Below are positions 3,079 to 33,222 of a stretch of DNA of 33,384 nucleotides, piece after piece; the first letter of the stretch is position 1; each line of letters begins with the position of its first letter. The notes beneath the pieces are model-generated. The model had not been told where the DNA came from. It worked only from the letters and a program-made list of their open reading frames with translations, and ran no database searches. Source of the stretch: Rhodospirillales bacterium (GTDB lineage Bacteria > Pseudomonadota > Alphaproteobacteria > Rhodospirillales > Defluviicoccaceae). The stretch lies in assembly GCA_007695045.1 (NCBI GenBank), contig REEP01000027.1:1-33384 (forward strand). The letters are read 5' to 3'. Made by a program: the position numbers and the translations under genes.

Positions 3079-5907
3079 TCAGCCCTTGGCCTCCAGCTCG
3101 CGCAGCATCGCCTCGGCCTCGTCGCGCTTGGTGAACGGCGTGCCGAGATCGAGGGCGCGCCGCAGGACGTCGCGGGCCTCCTCCGTCTGGCCGGCCGCGG
3201 CCAGTGCCTGGGCGAAATGGTACTGGATCGTGGCGTTGTCGGGGACGCCGCTCGCGGCTTGGCGCAACAGCGTCACCGCCCGGGCCGTCTCCCCCCGCGC
3301 CAGCTCGATCATGCCAAGGGTGTCGGCGACGCCCGGATGATCGGGCGCCACGTCATGGGCGCGCAGGGCGTGCCGACGCGCTTCCGAGATGGCACCGTCC
3401 TCATACAGGAACCAAGCCAAATTGTTCTGCGCGACCCAGACGCCGGGCTCGATCCGGACAATGTCCCGCAGAACCGCTTTCGCATCGTCACGCCGATCGA
3501 GCGCGATGTAATACTCGCTCAGCCGCACCATGAGCGCCAGATTGTCCGGGTGGGCGGCGAGCCCGTCCTTCAGTGCGGCAATCGCCGCGTCGGGGTCGCC
3601 GGCTTGCCAGCGGGCGAGCGACAGGGCCGCTGAGAGTTCGACGCTGGGCACCTGTTCCAGAGCCTGCTCGTAGAACGCAGCGGCCTCGGCGGGGTTGCCT
3701 TCCGCCGCGGCCAACTGCCCCTGAAGGACGATCACGCCGACGCGCTCCGGATCGCTGGCGGCAAGCTCCGTCACCAGCGGTCGCGCCGCCTCGACATCGC
3801 CGGCGCCGATCATCACGCCGGCCAGGGCGGACTTGGCGCCGAAATGTGCCGGATCCAGCTCCAGGGCCCGGTTCAAGGCGTCCTTGGCGTCGTCCAGACG
3901 CTGCAGGCGCAGGTAGGCCCCGCCGAGCAGGAAATGTCCCTCGGCCACGTCCGGGGCCGCCGCCGTGAGGCGCTCCAGATCGCGCGCGGCCTCGGCCGGC
4001 CGGTCGGTTTGAAGGTACGCTTGGCCACGTACCGCCAGCATCGCCGCATTCTCGCCCGCGGCCTCCGCCACTGGCTCCGTGATCTCAAGCGCCCGTTCCG
4101 GGGCGCGTTCCGCCATGAAGCCCTGGGCCAGCCCCAGCCGCGGGGCGATCGCATCCGGGTTGGCCGCGACCGCCTGTTCCAGCCGCTCTCGCGCCATCTC
4201 CGTGCGTCCGGCGTTCTGTTCCAGCGCCGCCAGGCGCATCAGCGTCGGGAAATGGTCCGGCTGGCTTTCCAGGACGCTTTCCAGCAAAGTCCGCGCCTCA
4301 TCCACGTCGCCGTCCTGAAGCGCGATCTGCGCCAGATTGTTAGCGGCATCGCTCCGTCCCGGCTCCAGTTCCAAGGCCCGCTCGAAGGCGACTCGCGCGG
4401 CGTCGACGTCGCCCTTGCCGGCATGGGCGCCGCCTGAGAGCACCAGCCAGGCGACGTCGTCCGGATCGTCCGCCAGTTCTCGCTGGATCACCGCAAGCGC
4501 GTCGTCGAACCGGCCTTCGCGCATGTACCCCAAAGCCAGCGCCGCCTGCGCCCGCTGGAACTCGGGCGAGTCCTGAAGCCGCGGATCCAGTTCCAGCGCG
4601 GCCAGCAGTTCCTGTTCCGCGGCGCCGGTGTCGCCGGCCGCCATGCGCAGGACGCCCAGACGCGCGCGCAACCCGGCCTCGTCCGGCGACAGGGTCACCG
4701 CCCGTTCCATGAACGTGACGCTCTGCTGCATCCCCCCCTGTCCCTGGGCCGCGGCCGCGCTCAACAGGGTGAGATAGGCGTCGTCGTCCGGGATCCCCGC
4801 CGGCGCCGCCATCAGGGTCTGGTAGGCTTGGGTTTGGGCGCCGAGGCGCAGCTGCACGCCACCCAGCAGGCGGCGGGCGTAGGTATCCTCCGGCGCCTGC
4901 GCCAGATAGCGGGCGAGTTGATCGCGGGCCTGTTCGAAGGACGCCAGGCCGGCGTTCGCCGCGCCGGCGATGAACAAGGCCTGTCGGTGGTTCGGCGCGA
5001 GGCGCAGAATCTCATCGGCATGGCTGCGCGCCGTTTCCAGGTCCTGCTGCTGCAGGGCCACCAGCCCTTTTAACAAGGCAACGTCCCGGTTATTGCCGGC
5101 GCGCGCCCCCAGGCTTTCGAGCACGGTGGCGGCATCGTCCGCCCGGTTCTGAAAAACCAGTGACCGGGCGAGGCCGATCTGGGCCGAGACGCCCTGGGGC
5201 GCCAACGCCACCGCCTGCCGGTAGGCCGCCTCCGCCGCTTCCGGCTGACGCTGGGCCAGAAGCACGTCGCCCTTCAGGGCATTGAGAACCACGTCATCGG
5301 GGACCGCCGCGAGGCCCTCTTCGGCCAGTGCAAGGGCCTGCTCAAGGTCGTTTCGGGCGATGGCGGTCCGCACCAGCATCGCTTGCGCCCGGGCATGAGG
5401 CCGGTCCTGTTGCGCCTGGTCCAGCGCTTCCTCCGCCTCGTCCAGCCGGCCGAGCCGGAACAGCGCCTCACCCCGAACCGCGCGCCACTCCGCCGGTTGC
5501 GCCGCCGTCGGCAGTTCGGCGTCGGCGGCCGCGACAACGGCTTCGACGTCGCCGGTCAGAAGTCGGGCCTGCGCCAGTTTGAGCCGCACGTCCTCGTCGT
5601 CGAGGCCGAGGTTCTGCGCCCGTTCGAGCTGGTTGATCGCCCCGGCACCATCGCCTTGAAGCAAGTGGAATTCGCCCAGCAGGCGACGCGCCTCGGCATT
5701 CTGCGGTTCCTTCTGCAAGGCGTTGCGCAATTCGATGACGCCGGCGGCGATGTCGTTCTCGGCCTGGAACTCGATGGCACGGGCGACGTGCTCTTCGGCC
5801 GTGCGGGGCGGCGCCCCGTCGCATCCGGTCGCGCCAAAGATGCTCACGGCTCCCAGCACGGCGGCCACGCGGGTGCCGCGCCACACACCTTGGGTGAAGG
5901 ACTTCAT
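3079..5907 (-). CDS. prsT: PrsT-like TPR-repeat lipoprotein (PEP-CTERM/exosortase system)
   Basis: Large TPR protein of 942 residues with a hydrophobic N-terminal signal ending ATGCD, a plausible lipobox that would place the lipidated cysteine at residue 29. The rest is almost entirely tandem TPR-like helical hairpins (recurrent A-x-x-x-Y/L-x-x-A-L-x-L-x-P patterns such as ALELDPAHFGAKSALAGV and AVALAPQGVSAQIGLA). Length, lipoprotein signal and repeat architecture match the PrsT family found beside XrtA-type exosortase and EPS genes. Its role there is thought to be scaffolding of extracellular polysaccharide or protein export; the biochemical function is not established. Asp30 at +2 after the lipid cysteine would favour inner-membrane retention if the E. 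coli Lol rule holds. The start is supported by AGGAGG ten bases upstream of the ATG. The other exosortase genes would have to lie outside the window to the left. Confidence 0.75.
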   Translation of the reverse strand: MKSFTQGVWRGTRVAAVLGAVSIFGATGCDGAPPRTAEEHVARAIEFQAENDIAAGVIELRNALQKEPQNAEARRLLGEFHLLQGDGAGAINQLERAQNLGLDDEDVRLKLAQARLLTGDVEAVVAAADAELPTAAQPAEWRAVRGEALFRLGRLDEAEEALDQAQQDRPHARAQAMLVRTAIARNDLEQALALAEEGLAAVPDDVVLNALKGDVLLAQRQPEAAEAAYRQAVALAPQGVSAQIGLARSLVFQNRADDAATVLESLGARAGNNRDVALLKGLVALQQQDLETARSHADEILRLAPNHRQALFIAGAANAGLASFEQARDQLARYLAQAPEDTYARRLLGGVQLRLGAQTQAYQTLMAAPAGIPDDDAYLTLLSAAAAQGQGGMQQSVTFMERAVTLSPDEAGLRARLGVLRMAAGDTGAAEQELLAALELDPRLQDSPEFQRAQAALALGYMREGRFDDALAVIQRELADDPDDVAWLVLSGGAHAGKGDVDAARVAFERALELEPGRSDAANNLAQIALQDGDVDEARTLLESVLESQPDHFPTLMRLAALEQNAGRTEMARERLEQAVAANPDAIAPRLGLAQGFMAERAPERALEITEPVAEAAGENAAMLAVRGQAYLQTDRPAEAARDLERLTAAAPDVAEGHFLLGGAYLRLQRLDDAKDALNRALELDPAHFGAKSALAGVMIGAGDVEAARPLVTELAASDPERVGVIVLQGQLAAAEGNPAEAAAFYEQALEQVPSVELSAALSLARWQAGDPDAAIAALKDGLAAHPDNLALMVRLSEYYIALDRRDDAKAVLRDIVRIEPGVWVAQNNLAWFLYEDGAISEARRHALRAHDVAPDHPGVADTLGMIELARGETARAVTLLRQAASGVPDNATIQYHFAQALAAAGQTEEARDVLRRALDLGTPFTKRDEAEAMLRELEAKG

Positions 5908-6333: not shown

Positions 6334-7200
6334 TCAGCCGCCGGCTTCGAACCCCGGATACAGCATCATACCGCCGTCCACATACAGTGTCGTGCCGGTG
6401 ATGTAGTCGGCGTAATCGGAGGCCAGCCACACCGCCGCCCGCCCGATGTCCGACGGCTCGCCGATACGGTTGTAGGGAACCAGTTTCATCAACGCGTGGT
6501 ATGCCTCGGGTGTTTCCCAGGCGTCGCGGTTGATCGGCGTCCGCACGGCACCGGGCGAGATGGCGTTGACCCGAATGCGCCAGGCCGCGACCTCCTGCGC
6601 CAAGCTCTTCATCATCATCAGGACGCCGCCCTTGGAGGCGGCGTAGTTAGCATGACCGGCCCACGGGATGGAATCGTGGACCGAACTCATGCAGATGATC
6701 TTGCCGGCGGCGCACGACACCTCGGGCACCACACCCTTGCGCCGGAAGGCGCGCACCGCTTCCCGGCAGCACAGGAACTGCCCGGTGAGGTTCACTCGGA
6801 GAACCATGTCCCAGTCGGCGAGGCTCATCTCGTCGAACGCGGCATCCCGCTGCACGCCGGCGTTGGCGACCAGGATGTCGATGCCGCCGAAGGTTTCCTG
6901 TATGCGCTGGAACATGCCCTGGACGGCGGCTTCGTCGGACACGTCGGCCTGGTGAGCGTAAGCCCGCACGCCGCAACGCTGCTCCACGGCCTCAACGACC
7001 TCCTGAGCCTCCTCGTCGCCGGAGTTGTAGTTGACCACCACGTCGGCACCGGCCCAGCCGAGTTCGATGGCGATCTCCCGCCCGATGCCGGAACTGCCGC
7101 CGGTGACCAGGGCCTTCTGGCCTTTAAGCGACAACTGACGCTCCGGGCTGGGCAGGACCGCTGGCGGGTAGCAGTCCGCCGCAGATGGCCGGTCGGTCAT
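6334..7200 (-). CDS. SDR-family oxidoreductase, glucose 1-dehydrogenase-like
   Basis: Short-chain dehydrogenase predicted to oxidise a sugar or polyol with NAD(P)+; best resemblance is to bacterial glucose 1-dehydrogenases (beta-D-glucose to gluconolactone). It shows the TGGSSGIG cofactor loop, VANAGV, MSSVH (catalytic Ser) and NYAASKGG (catalytic Tyr-x-x-x-Lys), and ends with TGTTLYVDGGMM as in classical SDRs. The ATG at 7200 is chosen over an upstream GTG at 7224 because AAGGAG sits eight bases before it; this gives 288 residues with a longer Pro-rich N-terminus than the usual 250–260. It lies 31 bp downstream of the GH15 gene on the same strand, so the two are probably cotranscribed: hydrolysis would release glucose and this enzyme would oxidise it. 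The exact substrate is inferred from fold and neighbour. Confidence 0.88.
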   Translation of the reverse strand: MTDRPSAADCYPPAVLPSPERQLSLKGQKALVTGGSSGIGREIAIELGWAGADVVVNYNSGDEEAQEVVEAVEQRCGVRAYAHQADVSDEAAVQGMFQRIQETFGGIDILVANAGVQRDAAFDEMSLADWDMVLRVNLTGQFLCCREAVRAFRRKGVVPEVSCAAGKIICMSSVHDSIPWAGHANYAASKGGVLMMMKSLAQEVAAWRIRVNAISPGAVRTPINRDAWETPEAYHALMKLVPYNRIGEPSDIGRAAVWLASDYADYITGTTLYVDGGMMLYPGFEAGG

Positions 7201-7231
7201 GTCCACCTCTCCTTTCTCTGTCACCGCGTTT

Positions 7232-9073
7232 TCAAGTCCCCGGCCCCAACGCCCGGTCGAGGTTCACGGCGGCGCTGATCAGCGCCAGATGGGTGAAGGC
7301 CTGCGGGTAATTGCCGAGCGCCTCGCCACAACTGCCCGTCTCCTCGGCATACAGGCCGACGTGGTTGGCATATCCGGTCATGCGCTCGAACATCAGCCTG
7401 GCCTCCTCCAGCCGGGCGGGATCGTGGCGACCGGCCCGGGTCAGCGCCTCCACCAGCCAGAAGGTGCAGATGTTGAATGTGCCTTCATCGCCCTGAACCC
7501 CATCGGCGCTTTCGCTCAGGCTGTAGCGATAGACAAGGTTGTCCGCCGTCAGCCCGCCCTTGTCGGGGGGCGCCAGGATGGCATCCAGGGTCGCGAGCAT
7601 GCGCGGATCCGTCGGCGCCACGAAGAAGGTCAGGGGCATCATCAGATTGGATGCATCCAGGCTGCTACCGTCATAGTGCTGAACGAACGCTCGGCGCGTC
7701 CCGTTCCATCCTCGCTGCATGATGTCGTTGTAGATGTCGTCGCGCACCTTGAGCCAGCGCGCCCGGTTGGCCGGAAAGGAGCGCTTGTCGGCGAGGCGGA
7801 TGCCGCGGTCCAGGGCAACCCAGCACATGAGCTTGGAATAGACGAACTGACGGCGACCGCTCCGTACTTCCCAGATGCCGTCGTCCGGCCGCTGCCAATG
7901 CTCGCAAACCCATTCGATCATGTGGTGAAGTGTTGTCCACAGATCGTAGGAAATGGGCTCCACATGCTTGTTGAACAGGTAGACGGCGTCCAGAAGTTCC
8001 CCATAAATGTCCAACTGGAACTGGTTGCGTGCATCATTGCCGATGCGGATGGGGCGTGACCCGCGGTAGCCCTCCAGGTGATCGAGGATTTGCTCAGGGG
8101 GCGCGGGGCCGCCGTCGATGCCGTACATCAGCTGCAACGGCCCATCCTCTTTCGGGGCCTTGCACACCTTGTCCAGGAAACCCATGAACTGTTCAGCTTC
8201 TGTCGTGAAGCCCAGGCGGATGAAGGCGTACACCGTGAACGCCGCGTCCCGCACCCAGGCGTAGCGGTAGTCCCAGTTGCGCTCGCCGCCGACACCCTCG
8301 GGCAGACTGCAGGTGGGGGCGGCGACGATGGCACCGGTCGGCGCGTAGGTCAGCAGCTTGAGGGCCAATGCCGAACGGTGCACCATCTCGCGCCAGCGCC
8401 CGCCGTATTGCGACCTTCCGAGCCAGTTGCGCCAGTAGGCGACGGTGTCCCGGAACATTTGTTCCGCTGCATCCGGGTTGACGGCCATGGCGGCGTCATC
8501 CTCGGCCGACAGCAGTTCGAGCACGAAGACGGCGGTTTCGCCCTCGCAAAGAGTGAAAGCGGCCGACACGCCGTTGCCGTCACTGCGCTCGAACGCGCAG
8601 TCGCCGGTCAGGCCCAGGCTGAGATCGGCCGCATTGAACATGACGCCATTGCTGGTTATGCGGACCACGTGTCGGGCGCGGCCGTAATCGAACGCGGGCC
8701 GGCAGTCGAGGCGAAAGGTCAGTTCGCCGCGATTGACGGTCAGCCGGCGCACCACCCGGTGATGATGGCGCTTGGCTGACGCACCGGATTCCAGCGGCAT
8801 AAAATCGGTCAGCTCGGCGGCCCCTTCCCGGGTCAGGAAGCGGGTGACGAGGACGTTCGTTTCCGGCCAGTAGAACTGCTTGTAGGTGACGTCCTCGATC
8901 GCCGGCGCGATCCGGAAGCGACCCCCCTTTTCGTCGTCCAGGATCGCCGCGAACACGCTGGGGGAGGCGAAGTTGGGCAGGCACAGCCAGTCGATGGAGC
9001 CGTTGATCCCGACCAGGGCGACCGTGTGCAGATCGCCGATCATTCCGTAGTTCTCGATCGGCTGGTAGGCCAT
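7232..9073 (-). CDS. Glycoside hydrolase family 15 protein (glucoamylase/trehalase-like)
   Basis: Cytoplasmic GH15 enzyme of 613 residues, expected to release glucose from the non-reducing ends of alpha-glucans or from trehalose by inversion. The N-terminal segment [20 protein letters not shown] with [17 protein letters not shown] is the beta-sandwich entry typical of bacterial GH15 'trehalase-like' proteins. The (alpha/alpha)6 barrel shows [21 protein letters not shown] and ends with [19 protein letters not shown], a family hallmark. There is no signal peptide. The start is supported by GGGAGG five bases before the ATG. It precedes the glucose-dehydrogenase-like SDR and lies in the same strand run as a starch-binding coiled-coil protein, which favours an internal glucan or trehalose substrate; substrate choice cannot be settled from sequence alone. 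Confidence 0.92.
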
Positions 9074-9171: not shown

Positions 9172-10866
9172 TCAGGACGCTTTCAGTCCCGGAAAATCGT
9201 CCTCCCAGTACTCGTGGGCGCCGCGCTGTCCAAGGCCCCGCATCTCCGCTTCGTGCTTGCGCAATTCCACCCGGCGGATTTTGCCGGAAATGGTCTTGGG
9301 CAGATCGCCGAACTCCAGCCGGCGGATGCGCTTGAACGGCGCCAGGTGCTCCCGGGTGAAGCGGAAGATGTCCTCGGCCAGCTCACGGCTGGGCTCGCGT
9401 CCGCCAATCAGCGCCACCACCGCCTTGGGCACGGCCAGGCGCACCGGATCGGGGCTCGGCACCACCGCGGCCTCGGCCACCGCCTCATGCTCCAGCAGCA
9501 CGCTCTCCAGCTCAAACGGGCTGATGCGGTAATCGGACGCCTTGAACACGTCGTCAGATCGGCCGACGTAGGTCAGATACCCATCTGCATCCCGCATCGC
9601 CACGTCACCGGTCCGGTAGAAGCCGCCCTCCATCACCCGGGCGGTCATGCCCGGGTCGTCCTTGTACCCGACCATGAGCCCCACCGGCCTCGGGTCGAGC
9701 ACCAAGCTGATCTCGCCTTCGTCGGCCGGCTTGCCGTCGGGGTCGAGCAGGACCACCTGGTAGCCGGGCATGGGCCGGCCCATGGACCCTGGCTTCAGGC
9801 GCTGACCCGGGGAATTGCCGATCTGCGCCGTGGTCTCGGTCTGGCCGTAGCCGTCACGAAGGTCGAGCCCCCAGCCTCTCTTGACCTGATCGATGATTTC
9901 GGGATTGAGCGGCTCGCCGGCGCCGATCACCTCCCTGAGCTTGACCGGATGCGCCTTCAGGTCTTCCTGGATCAGCATCCGCCACACGGTCGGCGGCGCG
10001 CACAGGGTGGTGACGCCGCAGCGTCCGAGCACGTCGAGCATGGCCGGCGCGTGGAAGCGGCTGAAGTTGTAAATGAAGATGGTTGCCTCGGCGATCCAGG
10101 GGGCGAAGAAGCAGCTCCAGGCATGTTTGGCCCAGCCGGCGGAACTGATGTTCAGGTGGATGTCGCCGGGGCGCAGCCCGATCCAGTACATGGTCGAAAG
10201 ATGCCCCACCGGATAGCTCTGGTGGGTATGCTCCACCAGCTTCGGCTTGGACGTGGTGCCGGAGGTGAAGTACAGCAGAAGGGGATCGTCGGCGCGGGTG
10301 GGCCCGTCCGGCGTGAAGCTGGCATCGGCCCCGTAGGCATCCTCGAAGGTGTGCCAGCCGGCGGCGGTGCCGCCCACCACGATGCGCGAGTAGTCGCCGG
10401 CCAGTTCAGCGAACTTTTCGGTGTCCTGGGCACCGACCACCACATGGCGGACGTTGCCGCGCTCCAGCCGGTCCACCAGATCGTCGTGGGTGAGCAGGGT
10501 GGTCGCCGGGATCACCACCGCGCCCAGCTTGATGGCCGCCAGCATGACCTCCCACAAGGGCACGACGTTGCTCAGCATCATCAGGATGCGGTCGCCGCGG
10601 ACGACCCCGAGGCCGCGCAGGTGATTGGCGACCCGATTGGACCGCTCCGACATCTCGGCGAAGCTGAGCCGGCTTTCGGAGCCGTCCTCGTTCACCACCC
10701 ACAGCGCCGGCCGATCGTTGCCGCGGGCAATCATGTCGAAGTAGTCCAGCGCGAAATTGAAGTGCCCAAGCTGAGGCCACTGGAAACCCTTGTAGGCGGC
10801 TTCATAATCCTCGCGGTTGGCCAGGAGAAAGTCCCGGGTCTGGATAAACTGCTCGGTGGGAGTCAT
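9172..10866 (-). CDS. AMP-forming acyl-CoA synthetase (ANL superfamily)
   Basis: Activates a carboxylic acid to acyl-AMP and then acyl-CoA in the cytoplasm. Motifs in order: YFTSGTTSKPKLVEH (ATP/AMP-binding P-loop, signature A3), GYGQTE (A5), YRTGDVAMRD (A7), GRSDDVFK (A8) and PKTISGKIRR with the C-terminal catalytic lysine (A10). The ATG at 10866 is preferred over an in-frame upstream start at 10974 because GGAGGA precedes it and the extra 36 residues are low-complexity and lie over an inverted-repeat region; this gives 564 residues, a usual family length. The overall look is of the medium-chain/acetyl-CoA-synthetase-like branch; the substrate is not predictable. The gene lies 98 bp upstream of the GH15 gene and downstream of the starch-binding coiled-coil gene, all on the minus strand. 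Confidence 0.92.
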   Translation of the reverse strand: MTPTEQFIQTRDFLLANREDYEAAYKGFQWPQLGHFNFALDYFDMIARGNDRPALWVVNEDGSESRLSFAEMSERSNRVANHLRGLGVVRGDRILMMLSNVVPLWEVMLAAIKLGAVVIPATTLLTHDDLVDRLERGNVRHVVVGAQDTEKFAELAGDYSRIVVGGTAAGWHTFEDAYGADASFTPDGPTRADDPLLLYFTSGTTSKPKLVEHTHQSYPVGHLSTMYWIGLRPGDIHLNISSAGWAKHAWSCFFAPWIAEATIFIYNFSRFHAPAMLDVLGRCGVTTLCAPPTVWRMLIQEDLKAHPVKLREVIGAGEPLNPEIIDQVKRGWGLDLRDGYGQTETTAQIGNSPGQRLKPGSMGRPMPGYQVVLLDPDGKPADEGEISLVLDPRPVGLMVGYKDDPGMTARVMEGGFYRTGDVAMRDADGYLTYVGRSDDVFKASDYRISPFELESVLLEHEAVAEAAVVPSPDPVRLAVPKAVVALIGGREPSRELAEDIFRFTREHLAPFKRIRRLEFGDLPKTISGKIRRVELRKHEAEMRGLGQRGAHEYWEDDFPGLKAS

Positions 10867-11008: not shown

Positions 11009-11914
11009 CTATCGCCGGCGCACCGGCTTGCGGTCAGACCAACGCCCGTCGGCATCGAGCCAGCCGCTCCGGCCGCGATGCAGGTCGCCGGTCTTGTGGG
11101 TTGCGGCGTCATTGAACACCAGCGACGCCGCTCCGATCCCGTCCAGGCGGTGGACGTACCAGCCGTCGCCCTCCGCCGTCATCGCCACACCGGGCCACGC
11201 GGTTGCGCGCACCAGCGGCTCCGCATTCCAGTAGTGCAGGTAGACCGGCTCCGACCAGTCGGCCGGCTTCCGGAAATGCACCTCGAGGCCACCTGGGTCG
11301 CTTGCCGTCGTGGTCTGAGGCGTTGCGGATGGCGGTACCGCGGTCTCGGCAGCCTGGCGCAGTCGTGCGATTTCCCTATCCCGGTCGCTGATCCCCGCTT
11401 CCGCCGTGATCAGGGCTTGGCGCACCTGGGCCAGTGTCGCCTGTGCCTGGGCCAGTTCCTGGCGTGAGCCGTCTTGCGCCTGCCGCGCATCGGTCAATTC
11501 CCGGGCGAGATCGCGGATGCGGGTCTCATGGCGCGCGACCGTCTCCGCGCCCTCCGAACGCAGTTCTGCCAGTTCCGCTTCCAGCCGGACGCTCAGGTTC
11601 CGGGCTTCCGCCAGATCGGCCTGGGCCTGATCCCGTTCGGCCCGGGCCGTGTCGCGGTCCGCCCGCACATCCGTGAGGTCGCGGGCGAGGTCGGCGATCC
11701 GCGCCTCCAGGGCCGCAACCGCGCGCTCGCCCTCGGCACGCTGTTCTGCGAGTTCCGCTTCCAGCCGGGCGACGAGGCGGCGTGCCTCGTCGGGCTCGGG
11801 CTTCGTTTCATCGGCCGTGGCACTGCGCTGAGGCGCCGCGGCCGCGCCGTCGGGCGAACTCGCCTCGGACAATGCCTTCAACCACTGCTCCATCCAGAAC
11901 AAGCCGATGTGCAT
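11009..11914 (-). CDS. Coiled-coil protein with C-terminal CBM26-like starch-binding module
   Basis: Protein of 301 residues with no recognised enzyme domain. Residues 8–40 are a short helix and Pro/Ala-rich linker; residues 42–188 are a charged, heptad-like coiled coil containing two aligned 60-residue units (49–108 and 109–168, both with RLEAELAE and IxDLAR followed by LTD). Residues about 208–290 resemble a CBM26-type starch-binding module: HFRKPADW, VYLHYWN, AWPGVAMT, GWYVHRL, LVFNDA. These modules bind alpha-glucan through the aromatic residues. There is no signal peptide, so binding would be to intracellular glycogen; this is inference. The ATG at 11914 is chosen because GGGAGGGG lies just upstream; an upstream in-frame start at 11995 would sit at the predicted transcription start. 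It could act as a glycogen-granule scaffold. Confidence 0.8.
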   Translation of the reverse strand: MHIGLFWMEQWLKALSEASSPDGAAAAPQRSATADETKPEPDEARRLVARLEAELAEQRAEGERAVAALEARIADLARDLTDVRADRDTARAERDQAQADLAEARNLSVRLEAELAELRSEGAETVARHETRIRDLARELTDARQAQDGSRQELAQAQATLAQVRQALITAEAGISDRDREIARLRQAAETAVPPSATPQTTTASDPGGLEVHFRKPADWSEPVYLHYWNAEPLVRATAWPGVAMTAEGDGWYVHRLDGIGAASLVFNDAATHKTGDLHRGRSGWLDADGRWSDRKPVRRR

Positions 11915-12000
11915 CACTGGTTCCCCTCCCGTTTTTTTGCTGCGGTCCGCAAGCCCACACCTGCCACGGTCCCACGGCGGACAGGCGCCTTTCAACCTTC

Positions 12001-12028
12001 ATTGTAGGCAATGAGAGCCGGGGCTCAA
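12001..12028 (-). promoter_or_regulatory. Sigma-70-like promoter for the coiled-coil/CBM gene
   Basis: On the minus strand TTGAGC (12028–12023) and TACAAT (12006–12001) are separated by 16 bp, in the gap after the helicase stop. Transcription would begin near 11994, leaving a leader of about 80 bases before the ATG at 11914. The hexamers are good matches, but the start has not been demonstrated. Confidence 0.5.
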
Positions 12029-12127: not shown

Positions 12128-15100
12128 TCAGTCGGCTCCCAACAGGTACTCGACATCGTCCTCGCTGATATCCAGCGCGGTCTTGCCGTCGGGATCGAAC
12201 AGGCCCTCGGCGAGCGCCCGTTTGCGCGCCTGCAACTCCTGCATCTTCACTTCGATGCTGTCACAGGTGATCAGCTTGTGCACGAACACCGGGTTGCGCT
12301 GGCCGATGCGGTGGGCGCGGTCGGTGGCCTGCGCTTCCACCGCGGGGTTCCACCACGGGTCGTACAGGATCACCGTGTCGGCGGCGGTGAGGTTCAGCCC
12401 GGTGCCCCCGGCTTTGAGGCTGATCAGGAACAGCGGCACCTTGCCTTGCTGGAACTGCCGGACCGGGGCCGCCCGGTCGCGGGTCTGGCCGGTGAGGGTG
12501 ACGAAGGGGATGCCCTGCACGCTCAGGTCCGGCGCGATCAGGTCGAGCATGCCGGTGAACTGCGAGAACAACAGGATCCGGCGCCCCTCCGCGATAAGCT
12601 CCGGCACCATCTCCATCAGCCGGTCGAACTTGGCCGATCCCGGCGGCTTGCGCCGCCCGGCCAGGGTGCCGAACAGGCGTGGATCGCAGCACACCTGGCG
12701 CAGGCGCAACAGCGCCTCCAGCAACTCGATGCGGCTTCGCGCCAGGCCTTTGCGGGCGATGGCATTGCGCACCTTGTGATGCATGGCGAGGCGGATGCCT
12801 TCGTAGAGAGCGCGCTGGTCCGTGTGGAATTCTATATTTTCGATGATCTCCGTCTTGTCCGGCAGGTCCTTTTCCACCTCCGCCTTGGTCCGGCGCAGCA
12901 GGAATGGACGCACTCGGCGAGACAGCCGCATCTGCCGCTCCTGGTCGCCCTTCTTCTCGATTGGCGTGCGCCATTGGCGGGTGAAGCCTGTGCGATCGCC
13001 GAGGAACCCGGGCAGAACGGCGTCGAACAGCGCCCACAGCTCGCCGAGGTTGTTCTCAACCGGCGTGCCGGTCAGCGCGAACCGCTGGCGTGCGTCCAGC
13101 CGGCGCAGCACCTTGGCGGCAGTCGTGGACGGGTTCTTGACCATCTGCGCCTCGTCCAGGAACAGCACATGCCACGGCTGAGCCGTCAGCACCTGGCCGT
13201 CGATTCCCAGCAGCGGATAGGTGCTGAGCACCAGGTCTTGCTCCGCCAGGCGGCCGAAGTCCTGCTTGCGCGCGGGGCCCTGCAACGCCAGCACGTTCAG
13301 GTGCGGGGCAAACACCGTCGCCTCATGGCGCCAGTTGGGGATCAGGCTGGTGGGGGCAATCACCAGCGCCGGCCGGTCCAGCCGCCCCGCGGCCTTCTCG
13401 ATCGCCAGGTGGCCCAGTGCCTGCACCGTCTTGCCGAGTCCCATGTCGTCAGCCAGCACGCCGCCAAGCCCGCCAGCGCCAAGGAACTGCAGCCAGGCGA
13501 CCCCCTGCTGCTGGTACGGACGAAGGGTGCCGTTGAAGTCCGCCGGCATGGCGGCCGGCGGGATGCCGGCATGATCGCCGAGCCGCCGTCCCAGCGCCCG
13601 CAGGGCATCGCCGCCCCGCCAGACCATGCCGGCGCCGGCGGCCGCGTCCTCGAACGCGGCCAAGTCGACCGCATCGGCGGCGGTCAGGTGCAACTTGGCG
13701 GTCCTCGGGCCCACGCCGAACAGTCGGGTCATCGCCAGCAGGATCGGCCGAACTTGGCCGAACGTCATCACCAGGATCCGCCCGTCGGTCAGCGGCAGGC
13801 GAATGCGCCTGCCATCCCGCGTGTCGTCGCCCAGCACATTCTCCAGGTCGTCGGTCGGGAGCCGGTTCAGCAGGTCGACCAGTGCTGGCAGAACATCCAC
13901 CCGCTCGCCGTCGACCGGCACACCCAGGTTGAGTTCGAACCAGTCGATGCCGGTGCCGGAGCCCGGCTCGGTCACCGCCGCCTCGATCGGCCCCTCGCTT
14001 GCGCACGGGCGCAGCGGGAAGTCCTCGTCGAGGGCGACCTCCCAGCCCCGGGCTCGCAGCACCGGCACCTCGTCCAGCAGGAATGCCAGCCAGACGTCAT
14101 CGACGTCCACATCGGGCCCGCCCGCCGCGGGGAGGAAATGGGAGCGAAATGCTGTCCGAATACCCAGGTCGTAGCGCGCGCTCGCCGGCACGAAGCCCAG
14201 GCCCTTGAGGGTTTTCAGCGCCGCGCGCTCCGCCGCCATATCCCGCACCACTTCCACCACAAGGTCGTCGCTGACGCGGCTGACGATCGGGTCCTGTTCT
14301 TCGACATCGATGACGGCGTCCTCATACCGGAACGACAGCGCCGCAAGCTTGACCGTGATCAGGCTGGACCCGGGATCGCGGCCGGAACCCCAATAGGGAT
14401 GCCGGTGCACGGGCTCGCAGTGAAGTCGCAGGCACGGCGCCGGCGGGCCGGTGACCTGTCTCGGCGGCGGCAGCTCCGCCGGCAGTTTTGCCGTGCTCTC
14501 GGGCAGGATAGTCTGCAGGCGGGTGCGGACAGCCGCAACGGCGGATGCCGGCAGGGGCGGGGAGGCGAGCAGCGTCTCCAGCACCGGCGCCGGCATGTCG
14601 ATGGTGACCGGCCCGCAACGGGCGCCTTCGGGATGGTCCAGCTCCAGATACCACGGCGGGGTCACCGGCAGGACAAGCAACTCCGGATCGTTCTCGCCCC
14701 TGTCGATGGTGACCATGGGACTCTGCCGGCCATCGGCCTCGAGGACCCAACTCACCGCCCCCGGCCGGGCCGGGCCCTCGCTCAGCAATCGACCGTCCAC
14801 GGCGCCCCAGCGTGCCCGCCCGGTGCCCAAGATCATCGCCAGCACTTCTGCCCCGGCCTCGCCGCGGAGCGTGTAGCCCTCCAGGTTGCGGGTGGACTGA
14901 ACGATCAGCCGCCGCAGGATGGTCCGGTCGGATGGGCGCAGGAAGCGGGCCCCGCCCTGGGCCACATTGGCCGCATGGTACAGGGATGCGTTGCGGGAGA
15001 ACGATCCATCCTTCAGCAGACGCACCGACATTGGCGCGACGCGAAGTTCCAATGCGCCAACCGGCCAGATGTGCAGGAACAGCCGATAGATCAGGCGCTG

Positions 15101-15562
15101 GCGCAGGTCGGGCGGATAGTCTTCGCCGGCGCCCTCGACCGCGCACTTCATGTCCGCGAGCCAAGCCGCTACGTCCGTCGGGACTAGGTCCTGGGCTGCA
15201 CCGGGCCGCAAACCGGCTAGGCGTGAACCGGTGGCAAAGTCGCCTTTGGGCATCTGGCCGCGAAACAGCCCGTCTTCCATGGCCTGCAAAAGCAGCGCCA
15301 CCGCATGCTTGCACATCTGCCCAACGGGGCAGGTGCAGTGCGAGCGGATCCGCACTAGGCCCTGCGCCTTTGGCTCGACATGAACCCGGGTATCGTAAGG
15401 CCACACCCCGGACCCAGCGACGTCGCCCGCCACGAACCAGCCGTCCTCCTCCAGCCCGATCTCGAGCACCGTGGCGCGCCCGCCACGAAAGTAGGCTCGC
15501 CCCCTGCTGACGGCTTGGTACGAGAAAGACTGGCTCAGCCGGTCCGAGGTGAGCCGTGGCAT
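12128..15562 (-). CDS. SNF2-family DEAD/DEAH-like helicase with SWIM zinc finger
   Basis: Double-stranded-DNA translocase of the SNF2/HepA type, 1144 residues from the ATG at 15562. Near the N-terminus a SWIM zinc-binding motif C-x-C-x5-C-x-H is seen (Cys76, Cys78, Cys84, His86), followed by a long poorly recognisable region to about residue 660. The ATPase core then shows DMGLGKT (Lys711), VIAPTSLIPNW, DEAQ (803–806), LTGTPVENN, and in lobe 2 LLFSQFTGMLDLI, LKAGGTGLNL and QATDRAHRIGQ. The start at 15562 avoids overlap with argH, whose stop is at 15663; an in-frame start at 15709 would overlap it. Bacterial proteins of this build are common, and their cellular role (chromatin or transcription-complex remodelling, repair) is largely unknown. 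Confidence 0.9.
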   Translation of the reverse strand: MPRLTSDRLSQSFSYQAVSRGRAYFRGGRATVLEIGLEEDGWFVAGDVAGSGVWPYDTRVHVEPKAQGLVRIRSHCTCPVGQMCKHAVALLLQAMEDGLFRGQMPKGDFATGSRLAGLRPGAAQDLVPTDVAAWLADMKCAVEGAGEDYPPDLRQRLIYRLFLHIWPVGALELRVAPMSVRLLKDGSFSRNASLYHAANVAQGGARFLRPSDRTILRRLIVQSTRNLEGYTLRGEAGAEVLAMILGTGRARWGAVDGRLLSEGPARPGAVSWVLEADGRQSPMVTIDRGENDPELLVLPVTPPWYLELDHPEGARCGPVTIDMPAPVLETLLASPPLPASAVAAVRTRLQTILPESTAKLPAELPPPRQVTGPPAPCLRLHCEPVHRHPYWGSGRDPGSSLITVKLAALSFRYEDAVIDVEEQDPIVSRVSDDLVVEVVRDMAAERAALKTLKGLGFVPASARYDLGIRTAFRSHFLPAAGGPDVDVDDVWLAFLLDEVPVLRARGWEVALDEDFPLRPCASEGPIEAAVTEPGSGTGIDWFELNLGVPVDGERVDVLPALVDLLNRLPTDDLENVLGDDTRDGRRIRLPLTDGRILVMTFGQVRPILLAMTRLFGVGPRTAKLHLTAADAVDLAAFEDAAAGAGMVWRGGDALRALGRRLGDHAGIPPAAMPADFNGTLRPYQQQGVAWLQFLGAGGLGGVLADDMGLGKTVQALGHLAIEKAAGRLDRPALVIAPTSLIPNWRHEATVFAPHLNVLALQGPARKQDFGRLAEQDLVLSTYPLLGIDGQVLTAQPWHVLFLDEAQMVKNPSTTAAKVLRRLDARQRFALTGTPVENNLGELWALFDAVLPGFLGDRTGFTRQWRTPIEKKGDQERQMRLSRRVRPFLLRRTKAEVEKDLPDKTEIIENIEFHTDQRALYEGIRLAMHHKVRNAIARKGLARSRIELLEALLRLRQVCCDPRLFGTLAGRRKPPGSAKFDRLMEMVPELIAEGRRILLFSQFTGMLDLIAPDLSVQGIPFVTLTGQTRDRAAPVRQFQQGKVPLFLISLKAGGTGLNLTAADTVILYDPWWNPAVEAQATDRAHRIGQRNPVFVHKLITCDSIEVKMQELQARKRALAEGLFDPDGKTALDISEDDVEYLLGAD

Positions 15563-15662
15563 CGGCCCCACGTACGTATTGCTGGCAGCATTGCTTCCAC
15601 CAGGCGAAGACTGGTGGGACTTGTCGTTCACGGCGACGTTCCGACCAACTCGTGGACACGCA

Positions 15663-17081
15663 TCAGTCGAGAAACCGTTGGCGCGCCGCCGCGACGGCGG
15701 CCCGGACATTGGCCGGGGCGGTGCCGCCCTCGCTCACCCGGCTGGCCACCGACGCCTCCACGCTGAGCGCGGGTCGCATCGGATCGCCCAGCGCCGGGTC
15801 CACCGCGGTCAGCACCTCGTCCGGCAGGTCCTCGATGCCGCACCCCCGGCGCTCCGCTTCCCGTACCAGAGCCCCGACCACATGGTGCGCGCGGCGGAAC
15901 GCCATGCCCTGAGTGCGCACCAGCCAGTCGGCCAAGTCGGTGGCGGTGGCAAAACCGCGACCCGCCGCCGCCTGCATCCGCGCGCGGTCAAAGCTGGCGC
16001 CTTCGATCATGCCGGCCATCGCCCGCACTGACACGGAAAGGGTGTCGGCGGCATCGAACACCGGTTCCTTGTCCTCCTGCATGTCCTTGGCGTAGGCCAG
16101 CGGCAGCCCCTTCAGCACCACCAGCAGGCCGGTGAGCGCACCGATCACCCGACCGGCCTTGGCCCGCACCAGTTCCGCCGCGTCCGGGTTGCGCTTCTGC
16201 GGCATGATCGAGCTGCCGGTGGCGAAGCTGTCCGAAAGGCGGATGAATCCGAACGGGTCCGAGGACCAGATCACAATCTCCTCCCCCAGCCGCGACAGGT
16301 GGGTGGCGAGGATGGCGCCGGCGGCCAGGAATTCCAGGGCGAAATCCCGGTCGGACACCGCGTCCAGCGAGTTGGCCATGGGCGCAGCGAAGCCGAGCGC
16401 GGCCGCGGTCATCCGCCGGTCGATGGGAAAGGCGGTGCCGGCCAGCGCCGCCGCCCCCAGCGGGCACTCGTTGAGCCGGGCCCGGGCATCCCGCAGGCGG
16501 CCGCGGTCCCGCCCAAGCATCTCCACGTACGCCAGGAGATGGTGGCCCAGAGTCACCGGCTGTGCCGTCTGAAGGTGGGTGAAGCCCGGCATCACCGCGT
16601 CGGCGTAGCGTTCCGCCTGGTCGATCAGCGCGCCCTGAAGCCCCTTGAGAGCGCCATCGAGATCGTCGATGGCATCGCGCACCCACAGGCGCAGGTCCGT
16701 CGCCACCTGGTCGTTGCGCGAGCGCGCGGTATGCAGGCGTCCGGCCGCTTCCCCGATCAGCTCCGCCAGGCGCCCCTCCACGTTCATGTGGATGTCTTCC
16801 AGGGAACGCCGGAAGGTGAAGCGGCCTTGCGTGATCTCCGCCAGGATGGCATCCAGGCCGCCCAGGATGGCTTGGCCGTCGGCCTCGGTGAGGATGCCCT
16901 GGGTCACCAGCATGCAACAATGCGCCTTGGAGGCGGCGATGTCCTGGGCGTAGAGCCGTCGGTCGAAGTCGATGGAGGCGTTGATCTCGGCCATCAGCGC
17001 GGCCGGTCCGGCCTCGAAGCGGCCGCCCCAGATGGGGCTCGTGGCCGGTGCCGTCGGCGGCGGGCGCCCGTCTTCAGTCAT
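15663..17081 (-). CDS. argH: Argininosuccinate lyase
   Basis: Last step of arginine biosynthesis: argininosuccinate to arginine plus fumarate, in the cytosol as a homotetramer. The fumarase/aspartase-superfamily signature [19 protein letters not shown] is present, along with [16 protein letters not shown] and the active-site [12 protein letters not shown] region. The ATG at 17081 (472 residues, close to the usual 460–470) is preferred over an upstream in-frame start at 17132 because the extra N-terminus is an arginine-rich low-complexity stretch and a GAGG lies about eight bases upstream of the chosen ATG. The protein begins with a short Pro-rich tail before IWGGRF, the conserved start of ArgH. 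It is 121 bp downstream of purC on the same strand. Confidence 0.97.
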
Positions 17082-32139: not shown

Positions 32140-32217
32140 ACCGCTTGAGCCGGCGGAGACGAGGGTGCCGTGGATCCGTTTCGCCGGCGGCCCGGGCACG
32201 CGAACGAGAGGCAGATC

Positions 32218-33222
32218 ATGCAGATTACCATCAACGGCGAAAGCCGGACCTTCGAAGCCCCGATGACGGTGGCGCAACTGCTGGCCACCGTCGGCCTTGA
32301 CGCGCGCAAGGTCGCGGTGGAGCGGAATTTGGAGATCGTGCCCAAGTCCGGCTACCACGATATCGAGGTCGTGCCCGGCGACCGTCTGGAAATCGTCCAT
32401 TTCATCGGCGGCGGCGCTCCTGACACCGCCGAGGCGCCGGCAACGACCGCCCTGGACGACCCGCTGATCGTGGCCGGAACCGCGTACCGATCCCGGCTTC
32501 TGGTGGGTACCGGCAAATACAAGGATTTCGCCGAAACCGCCCGCGCCATCGAAGCCTCGGGGGCCGAAATCGTGACGGTGGCGGTGCGCCGGGTGAACGT
32601 CACCGATCCGAACCAGCCGATGCTGGTGGATTACGTGGACCCCCGCCGCTACACCTACCTCCCCAACACCGCCGGCTGCTTCACCGCCGCCGATGCGGTG
32701 CGCACCCTCAGGCTCGCCCGGGAGGCCGGCGGTTGGGACCTGGTCAAGCTGGAGGTGCTGGGCGATCAGAAGACCCTCTATCCCGACATGACTGAGACGC
32801 TGGCCGCCGCCGAGACCCTGATCGGCGAGGGGTTCAGGGTAATGGTCTACTGCTCCGACGACCCGATCCTGGCCAAACGCCTGGAGGAGATGGGCTGCGT
32901 GGCGATCATGCCGCTGGCGGCGCCCATCGGCTCCGGTCTCGGCGTGCAGAACCCGGTCAACATCCGCCTGATCGTGGAACAATCCGGCGTCCCGGTGTTG
33001 GTGGATGCCGGCGTCGGCACCGCGTCCGACGCCGCCATCGCCATGGAGATCGGCTGCGACGGCGTGCTGCTCAACACCGCCATTGCCGAAGCCAGGGACC
33101 CGATCCGGATGGCCCGGGCGATGAAGCTCGGGGTGGAGGCGGGCCGCCTCGCCTACCTCGCCGGGCGCATGCCGAAGAAGCGCTACGCCGACCCGTCCTC
33201 CCCGGTGGCCGGCCTGATTTGA
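32218..33222 (+). CDS. thiG: ThiS–ThiG fusion (sulfur carrier / thiazole synthase)
   Basis: Thiamine biosynthesis: ThiG makes the thiazole phosphate from 1-deoxy-D-xylulose 5-phosphate, dehydroglycine and sulfur carried as a thiocarboxylate on ThiS. Here both are one 334-residue chain. Residues 1–66 are ThiS-like ([22 protein letters not shown], then [14 protein letters not shown] with Gly64–66). A short Ala/Thr-rich linker leads to ThiG from about residue 81 ([20 protein letters not shown] with Schiff-base Lys177; [19 protein letters not shown]). The ATG at 32218 has GAGAGG upstream; an in-frame earlier start at 32170 would add an Arg-rich tail. In free ThiS the GG is the C-terminus that is thiocarboxylated, so the fusion needs cleavage or another sulfur route. 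ThiO, ThiF and ThiE genes are not adjacent. Confidence 0.95.

Follow-up and report, generated by a model that had tools for sequence, protein, structure and literature searches.

Starch-binding modules of family CBM26 are best known from secreted amylases. The locus described here raises the question of what such a module does at the end of a protein that has no enzyme domain and no visible export signal. It lies in a window, i.e. the whole stretch of DNA analysed, of 33,384 nucleotides (contig REEP01000027.1 of assembly GCA_007695045.1, from a Rhodospirillales bacterium of the Defluviicoccaceae). The protein is probably a non-enzymatic rod with a starch-binding tip, located inside the cell and serving to attach something to the glycogen that the cell itself stores, a task best known to date from the starch-targeting proteins of plants. 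It has three parts, a motif (residues 1-23), a long helix (41-190) and a CBM26 (208-297), and the features of the gene and its product are as follows.

11009..11914 (-): gene for the coiled-coil and CBM26 protein (P0001), 301 residues, ATG start
11923..11930 (-): likely ribosome-binding site GGGAGGGG, 8 bases upstream of the ATG
11846..11914 (-): N-terminal motif, residues 1-23 (MHIGLFWMEQWLKALSEASSPDG), from conservation in 4 aligned sequences
11345..11794 (-): single long charged helix, residues 41-190, predicted in the AlphaFold model
11024..11293 (-): CBM26 domain, residues 208-297 (Pfam match 212-279), from profile, model and fold
11195..11236 (-): putative ligand-platform positions H227, W229 and W240, from alignment to the CBM26 of Bacillus halodurans and conservation

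The reading frame from which a preliminary description of this DNA had quoted the strings YLHYWN, WPGVAM and LVFNDA is real, and all three are present in its translation. A full-length relative (L022) is 77% identical to the 301-residue protein. Between the window's genome (G000) and a same-genus relative (G001; the genus is g1 hereafter), 28 of the 90 CBM codons carry silent differences and 8 carry differences that alter the residue, which argues for a frame under selection rather than a chance open reading frame. The GGGAGGG of the ribosome-binding-like stretch is also kept in the same-genus relative. In both genomes a GTG stands immediately 5' of the ATG, so that translation might begin one codon further upstream; with the TTG at 11995 as start, the protein would have 328 residues. 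A sigma-70-like match lies near the gene at 12001-12028 (-), and a search for a terminator-like site near the gene found none.

The C-terminal module is a CBM26 by profile, model and fold. Pfam CBM26 (PF16738) matches residues 212-279 with 67.9 bits (E 8.7e-19, cut-off 28.1), and a search of PDB sequences returned Ruminococcus bromii Amy16 (2.1e-09) and alpha-amylase G-6 (2c3g, 1.4e-08). A full-length model built on 3 rows gave a poor CBM, and a model of the domain alone (pLDDT 93.5) was used instead, built on an alignment of 17 sequences that leaves out match C25 of genome G008 and the near-copy in G003 of the G007 sequence. This model matches the CBM26 of B. halodurans in 2c3g with Z 16.1 and, over 91 residues, an rmsd of 1.2 and 30% identity, and that in 2c3h, by its title a CBM26 solved with maltose, with a Foldseek E of 1.4e-07 and TM 0.84. 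The earlier call of a CBM26-like module is thus borne out, structure prediction having found the CBM fold with matches to 2c3g and 2c3h; CBM48 had no Pfam match in the protein at E up to 0.001. In the alignment of the PDB sequence search, H227, W229 and W240 correspond to Y23, Y25 and W36 of the B. halodurans module, which we take to be its maltose-binding platform. As for the putative aromatic binding residues, W229 and W240 are invariant in 17/17 aligned CBM26s. The remaining platform position is not a tyrosine: H227, where the solved module has Y23, is H in 15/17 sequences and Y in 2/17. Judged from these sequence and model comparisons, the CBM26 likely binds glycogen.

In the whole protein only CBM26 exceeded its Pfam cut-off, and profile searches found no enzyme domain in the 301 residues, in agreement with the preliminary description. 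The only other Pfam family at E up to 0.001 was OVT1, below its own cut-off; the matches of the coil to coiled-coil families were likewise below cut-offs and were disregarded. Of the 147-residue charged coiled coil described earlier, the charged helix stands as a prediction (150 residues, 41-190), and its self-pairing is putative. The pLDDT of this helix is mostly above 95, with ten-residue means of 90-98 that fall to 88 and 69 at its end. Acidic residues and arginine (D, E, R) make up 58 of its 150 positions, and lysine (K) is absent. The coil repeats internally: shifted by 60 residues, which is not a multiple of 7, it is 48% identical to itself, whereas the best offset in 2000 shuffles has its 99th percentile at 27%.

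Residues 1-23 form a hydrophobic, tryptophan-bearing stretch, for which a helix (3-18) is predicted at low confidence in the AlphaFold model, and M1, W7, W11, L12, K13 and S16 are invariant across the 4 aligned sequences. No signal peptide was seen by eye, as the preliminary description had also judged: E9, Q10 and K13 are present, and the longest run of small or hydrophobic residues in the first 37 is 6. A membrane helix is not a convincing reading of the motif, as the hydrophobic moment of the N-terminal 18 residues does not rise above shuffled sequences (583, 419, 204 and 980 of 5000 shuffles reach it). The motif is kept in all four sequences while the coil diverges. Compared with its counterpart in the same-genus genome, the window's protein is most alike in the CBM (identity 0.91) and in residues 1-23 (0.87), less so in the coil (0.73), and least in the two linkers (0.53 and 0.47). 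Both ends are therefore constrained and the rod less so, a pattern expected of a two-ended linker.

With the whole protein as query, matches were obtained in 10 of the 11 genomes of the window's family, 17 in all, 13 of which are CBM26s outside the coiled-coil form. The form itself, marked by its N-terminal motif, occurs in 4/11 family genomes and in two of the family's six genera: the window's own, its same-genus relative, and G004 and G005 of genus g3. The motif scores 52.7-59.7 bits in these four and at best 18.4 in the rest of the family. A search of 317 genomes of the order singled out these four again, its next two matches (21.0 and 18.7 bits) being read as due to chance and not as sharing of the motif by other proteins. 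The architecture search across Rhodospirillales suggested by the preliminary description thus found the form in four genomes of the window's own family. The G005 version has a longer coil (421 residues in all), and in the G004 assembly the gene is split between reading frames, through sequencing error or decay. The form is missing from 7/11 family genomes, some of them incomplete, and so is not required for glycogen storage. CBM26 is above its cut-off in 12/317 genomes of the order (10 of them in the window's family), in 1/385 of the class (the window's own) and in 4/398 of the phylum, the window's own included. In a tree of 18 of the 19 matches from the order, C25 of G008 being left out as cut by a contig end, the four coiled-coil CBM26s do not form one clade, as one GH13 CBM falls among them (support 45/85); their common origin is not rejected (p-AU 0.467).

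The genes around the coiled-coil CBM26 gene, all identified by profile matches, are the following.

12128..15709 (-): SNF2-type helicase, upstream neighbour
9172..10863 (-): AMP-binding acyl-CoA ligase, downstream neighbour
7232..9073 (-): GH15 or trehalase-like hydrolase, further downstream
6334..7224 (-): SDR of the glucose-1-dehydrogenase type, further downstream

The preliminary description had drawn on the hydrolase and the SDR as evidence that the protein may coat or tether intracellular glycogen. The order SNF2, coiled-coil CBM26 gene, acyl-CoA ligase, GH15, SDR and TPR is kept only in the same-genus genome, where the SDR was recognised through an open reading frame antisense to it. These two enzymes hence lend the role little weight. 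Relatives of the ligase, 75-93% identical, occur in 7 other family genomes, and six ligase loci from genera other than g1 (4.9-20 kb) have none of 14 window open reading frames beside the ligase at E up to 1e-8. With these six loci lacking the coiled-coil CBM26 gene alongside, the neighbourhood was discarded as evidence for role. The other two genomes have different neighbours: those identified in G005 are a pirin gene upstream (L023 11102-12079 (-)) and a VWA gene, and those in G004 a pirin-like frame upstream (by eye; L024 upstream of 10550 (-)) and ABC-transport genes. A pirin gene thus adjoins the coiled-coil CBM26 gene in both g3 genomes, by eye in G004. Glycogen genes were not recognised beside the gene among all neighbours in the window, nor in G001 by comparison with the window's genes, nor in G005 (4 neighbours profiled) or G004 (2 profiled, the rest by first letters only). 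As to the enzymes themselves, the SDR is glucose-dehydrogenase-like as had been proposed (glucose-1-dehydrogenase subfamily, 225.7 bits against a cut-off of 215, with the FabG cut-off also narrowly passed). The GH15 protein, in contrast, is closest to archaeal trehalases and below cut-offs (TreH1, 389 bits, far below 820), and by this match it may not act on glycogen at all. The two genes (6334-9073 (-)) are possibly a trehalose- or glucan-to-gluconate pair. Elsewhere in the window, 3079-5907 (-) encodes an XrtA/PEP-CTERM system TPR protein PrsT (627.9 bits, cut-off 312.2), which with a nearby AsnB-type asparagine synthase and a glycosyltransferase is probably one end of an exopolysaccharide/exosortase locus, and 32170-33222 (+) holds ThiS and ThiG domains in one frame, a sulfur carrier/thiazole synthase fusion.

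More is learnt from the other CBM26s of the family. Twelve of the 13 outside the coiled-coil form continue into GH13 sequence, in one case (G004) across a broken frame, and the thirteenth, in G008, is the one at the contig end; GH13 sequence also follows the CBM26 in the two genomes of the order outside the family. This reading rests on Pfam for two genes and was made by eye for the rest. The CBM26 stands at the very start of these GH13 proteins, directly behind an ATG (GTG for L025 and L049). No signal peptide was seen in them by eye, in open frames that extend further upstream, so that a longer start is possible. Within the window's genome, the CBM26 of the CBM26-GH13 amylase and that of the coiled-coil form are 58% identical over the aligned domain. 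Genome G004 carries both the coiled-coil form and a CBM26-GH13 gene, the latter within a glycogen cluster whose gene names are taken from Pfam domains:

L031 8195-10963 (+), genome G004: CBM26-GH13 amylase with Fn3_assoc and CHB_HEX_C_1, no signal peptide seen

The order is an epimerase (galE-like), glgP, glgA, pirin and CBM26-GH13, with a GT4, a debranching-type amylase and a GlgE following some 2.7 kb further on. The pirin (L031 7256-8089 (+)), another one than that next to the coiled-coil gene, lies between glgA and the CBM26-GH13 gene, and the amylase may be the kind of enzyme with which the family's CBM26 evolved. Elsewhere, a few dozen GH13 enzymes with CBM26 are described, in GH13_48 (PMC11239784). 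Since 12 of the 13 other CBM26s head GH13 sequence with no signal peptide seen, one of them in a glycogen cluster, the family's CBM26, that of the coiled-coil form included, most likely meets internal glycogen; the intracellular alpha-glucan setting proposed earlier is accordingly a likely one on sequence grounds. A glycogen/starch synthase domain (PF08323) was found in 11/11 family genomes, above 200 bits in 10, and also in 12/14 control genomes, so widespread a domain being weak support. In the window's genome, glgA adjoins a GH57-like gene (GH57 by eye), and the PHA synthase subunit PhaE is present.

By analogy with plant PTST1 (see below), we favour a soluble cytoplasmic glycogen adaptor, a reading for which we put the chances at about even. 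The CBM26 would hold glycogen of the cell itself by its alpha-1,4-glucan chains, and the long helix would pair with itself into a coiled-coil rod that presents at least two CBM26s together, so that weak single contacts would add up. At the far end, the N-terminal aromatic motif would dock a client protein, or another copy, and the client would thereby be held at the glycogen surface. Such a protein would probably have arisen by joining the CBM26 of a CBM26-GH13 amylase of the family to a coiled coil. We infer both the client and the role.

The main rival is the idea of the preliminary description, a phasin-like coat, in which many copies would sit on glycogen through their CBM26 with charged rods outward and no specific client, controlling granule size, keeping granules apart or keeping enzymes off. 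The highly charged, lysine-free rod, the lack of an enzyme domain and the CBM as best conserved part of the protein all agree with it. A mere coat would nevertheless have no need of the strongly conserved aromatic motif, and residues 1-195 gave no match to a phasin profile at E up to 0.1; we regard a coat as rather unlikely, and a scaffold or adaptor, by analogy, as fitting at least as well. Alternatively, the motif might sit on a second surface, such as the inner membrane or a PHA granule, with the rod setting the distance to glycogen. The stretch is indeed hydrophobic and tryptophan-bearing, and PhaE occurs in all four genomes with the protein; it occurs in two genomes without it as well. 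The hydrophobic moment is unexceptional (204-980 of 5000 shuffles reach it), and lipid-binding scores D of 0.02-0.38 stay under the threshold of 0.68. Glycogen-accumulating Defluviicoccus cycles glycogen and PHA (PMC9041414), its genomes having been reported to hold genes for both. A kinship of the window's organism with Defluviicoccus was suspected; among ten Defluviicoccus probes, some of which lie outside the partial 16S piece of G000, TFO_DF218 differs at 2/18 bases and each of the remaining nine at no fewer than 4, and the general probe EUB338 matches exactly. Taken together, such a bridge appears improbable.

Less probable again is a free-standing sensor of alpha-glucan or maltooligosaccharide, in which ligand on the CBM26 would alter the coil and signal to a partner, much as has been proposed for the glycogen-binding domain of AMPK beta. 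A CBM26 has been solved with maltose, and the protein lacks a catalytic domain; against this, no conserved regulatory neighbour was recognised in the two lineages. That the gene is a decaying fusion without function, as the broken frame in the G004 assembly and the patchy occurrence (4/11 family genomes) might suggest, is very hard to reconcile with a frame open in G000, G001 and G005, with mostly silent changes in the CBM between the first two, and with the same N-terminal motif in two genera.

To our knowledge, no bacterial protein devoted to the glycogen surface and lacking enzyme activity has been described. None was recognised among the titles and abstract openings listed from the open-licence literature, which is weak evidence of absence for being open-licence only, and no paper there combined CBM26 with a coiled coil. 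Passages of a review of prokaryote alpha-glucans (PMC11046441) refer to glycogen granules and to no such adaptor, CBM26 is absent from its available text, and the term CBM is absent from the main text of PMC9041414. It is tempting to speculate, with some doubt, that certain glycogen-storing Rhodospirillales evolved, independently of plants, a dedicated non-enzymatic means of placing proteins on glycogen, in the shape of a rod tipped with a glucan-binding module and bearing a conserved docking end for clients. If so, bacterial glycogen would be an organised body with recruited proteins and not a bare polymer, and the adaptor would offer a handle on the organisation of glycogen particles as well as a natural glycogen tag.

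Among known systems, the CBM26 of the B. halodurans amylase shares the fold and two of the three aromatic platform positions; there it is an accessory module of an amylase, whereas no other domain was recognised in the present protein, which is non-enzymatic and has H227 for Y23. The CBM26-GH13 alpha-amylases of the same family (L001, L029 and L031 among them) resemble the protein in their CBM26 and in showing no signal peptide, but have a GH13 catalytic domain and lack the coiled coil and the N-terminal motif. Secreted CBM26 amylases differ in having a glycoside hydrolase domain in the chain, and the apparently cytoplasmic setting sets this CBM26 apart. Animal STBD1 binds glycogen, is no enzyme and ends in a starch-binding domain, but this is a CBM20, its N terminus is membrane-anchored and it has no long coil; 8x8k, presumably the CBM20 of STBD1, ranks low in structure searches with the CBM model. 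Phasins of PHA granules share the idea of a non-enzymatic granule coat, although the present protein has no phasin profile match and carries a glucan-binding module. In domain order the protein resembles plant PTST1, in which a coiled coil leads into a C-terminal glucan-binding module with no enzyme, and which brings granule-bound starch synthase (GBSS) to starch (PMC4339375); here, too, a helix that is a putative coiled coil precedes the glucan-binding module. PTST2 and MFP1 place starch initiation (PMC10801857). With CBM48 and a plastid in the plant and a CBM26 in the bacterium, the protein is not a member of the PTST family, and GBSS, the client of PTST1, has no known counterpart in the window's bacterium. 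If the adaptor reading is right, the protein would be a convergent counterpart of the plant starch-targeting proteins.
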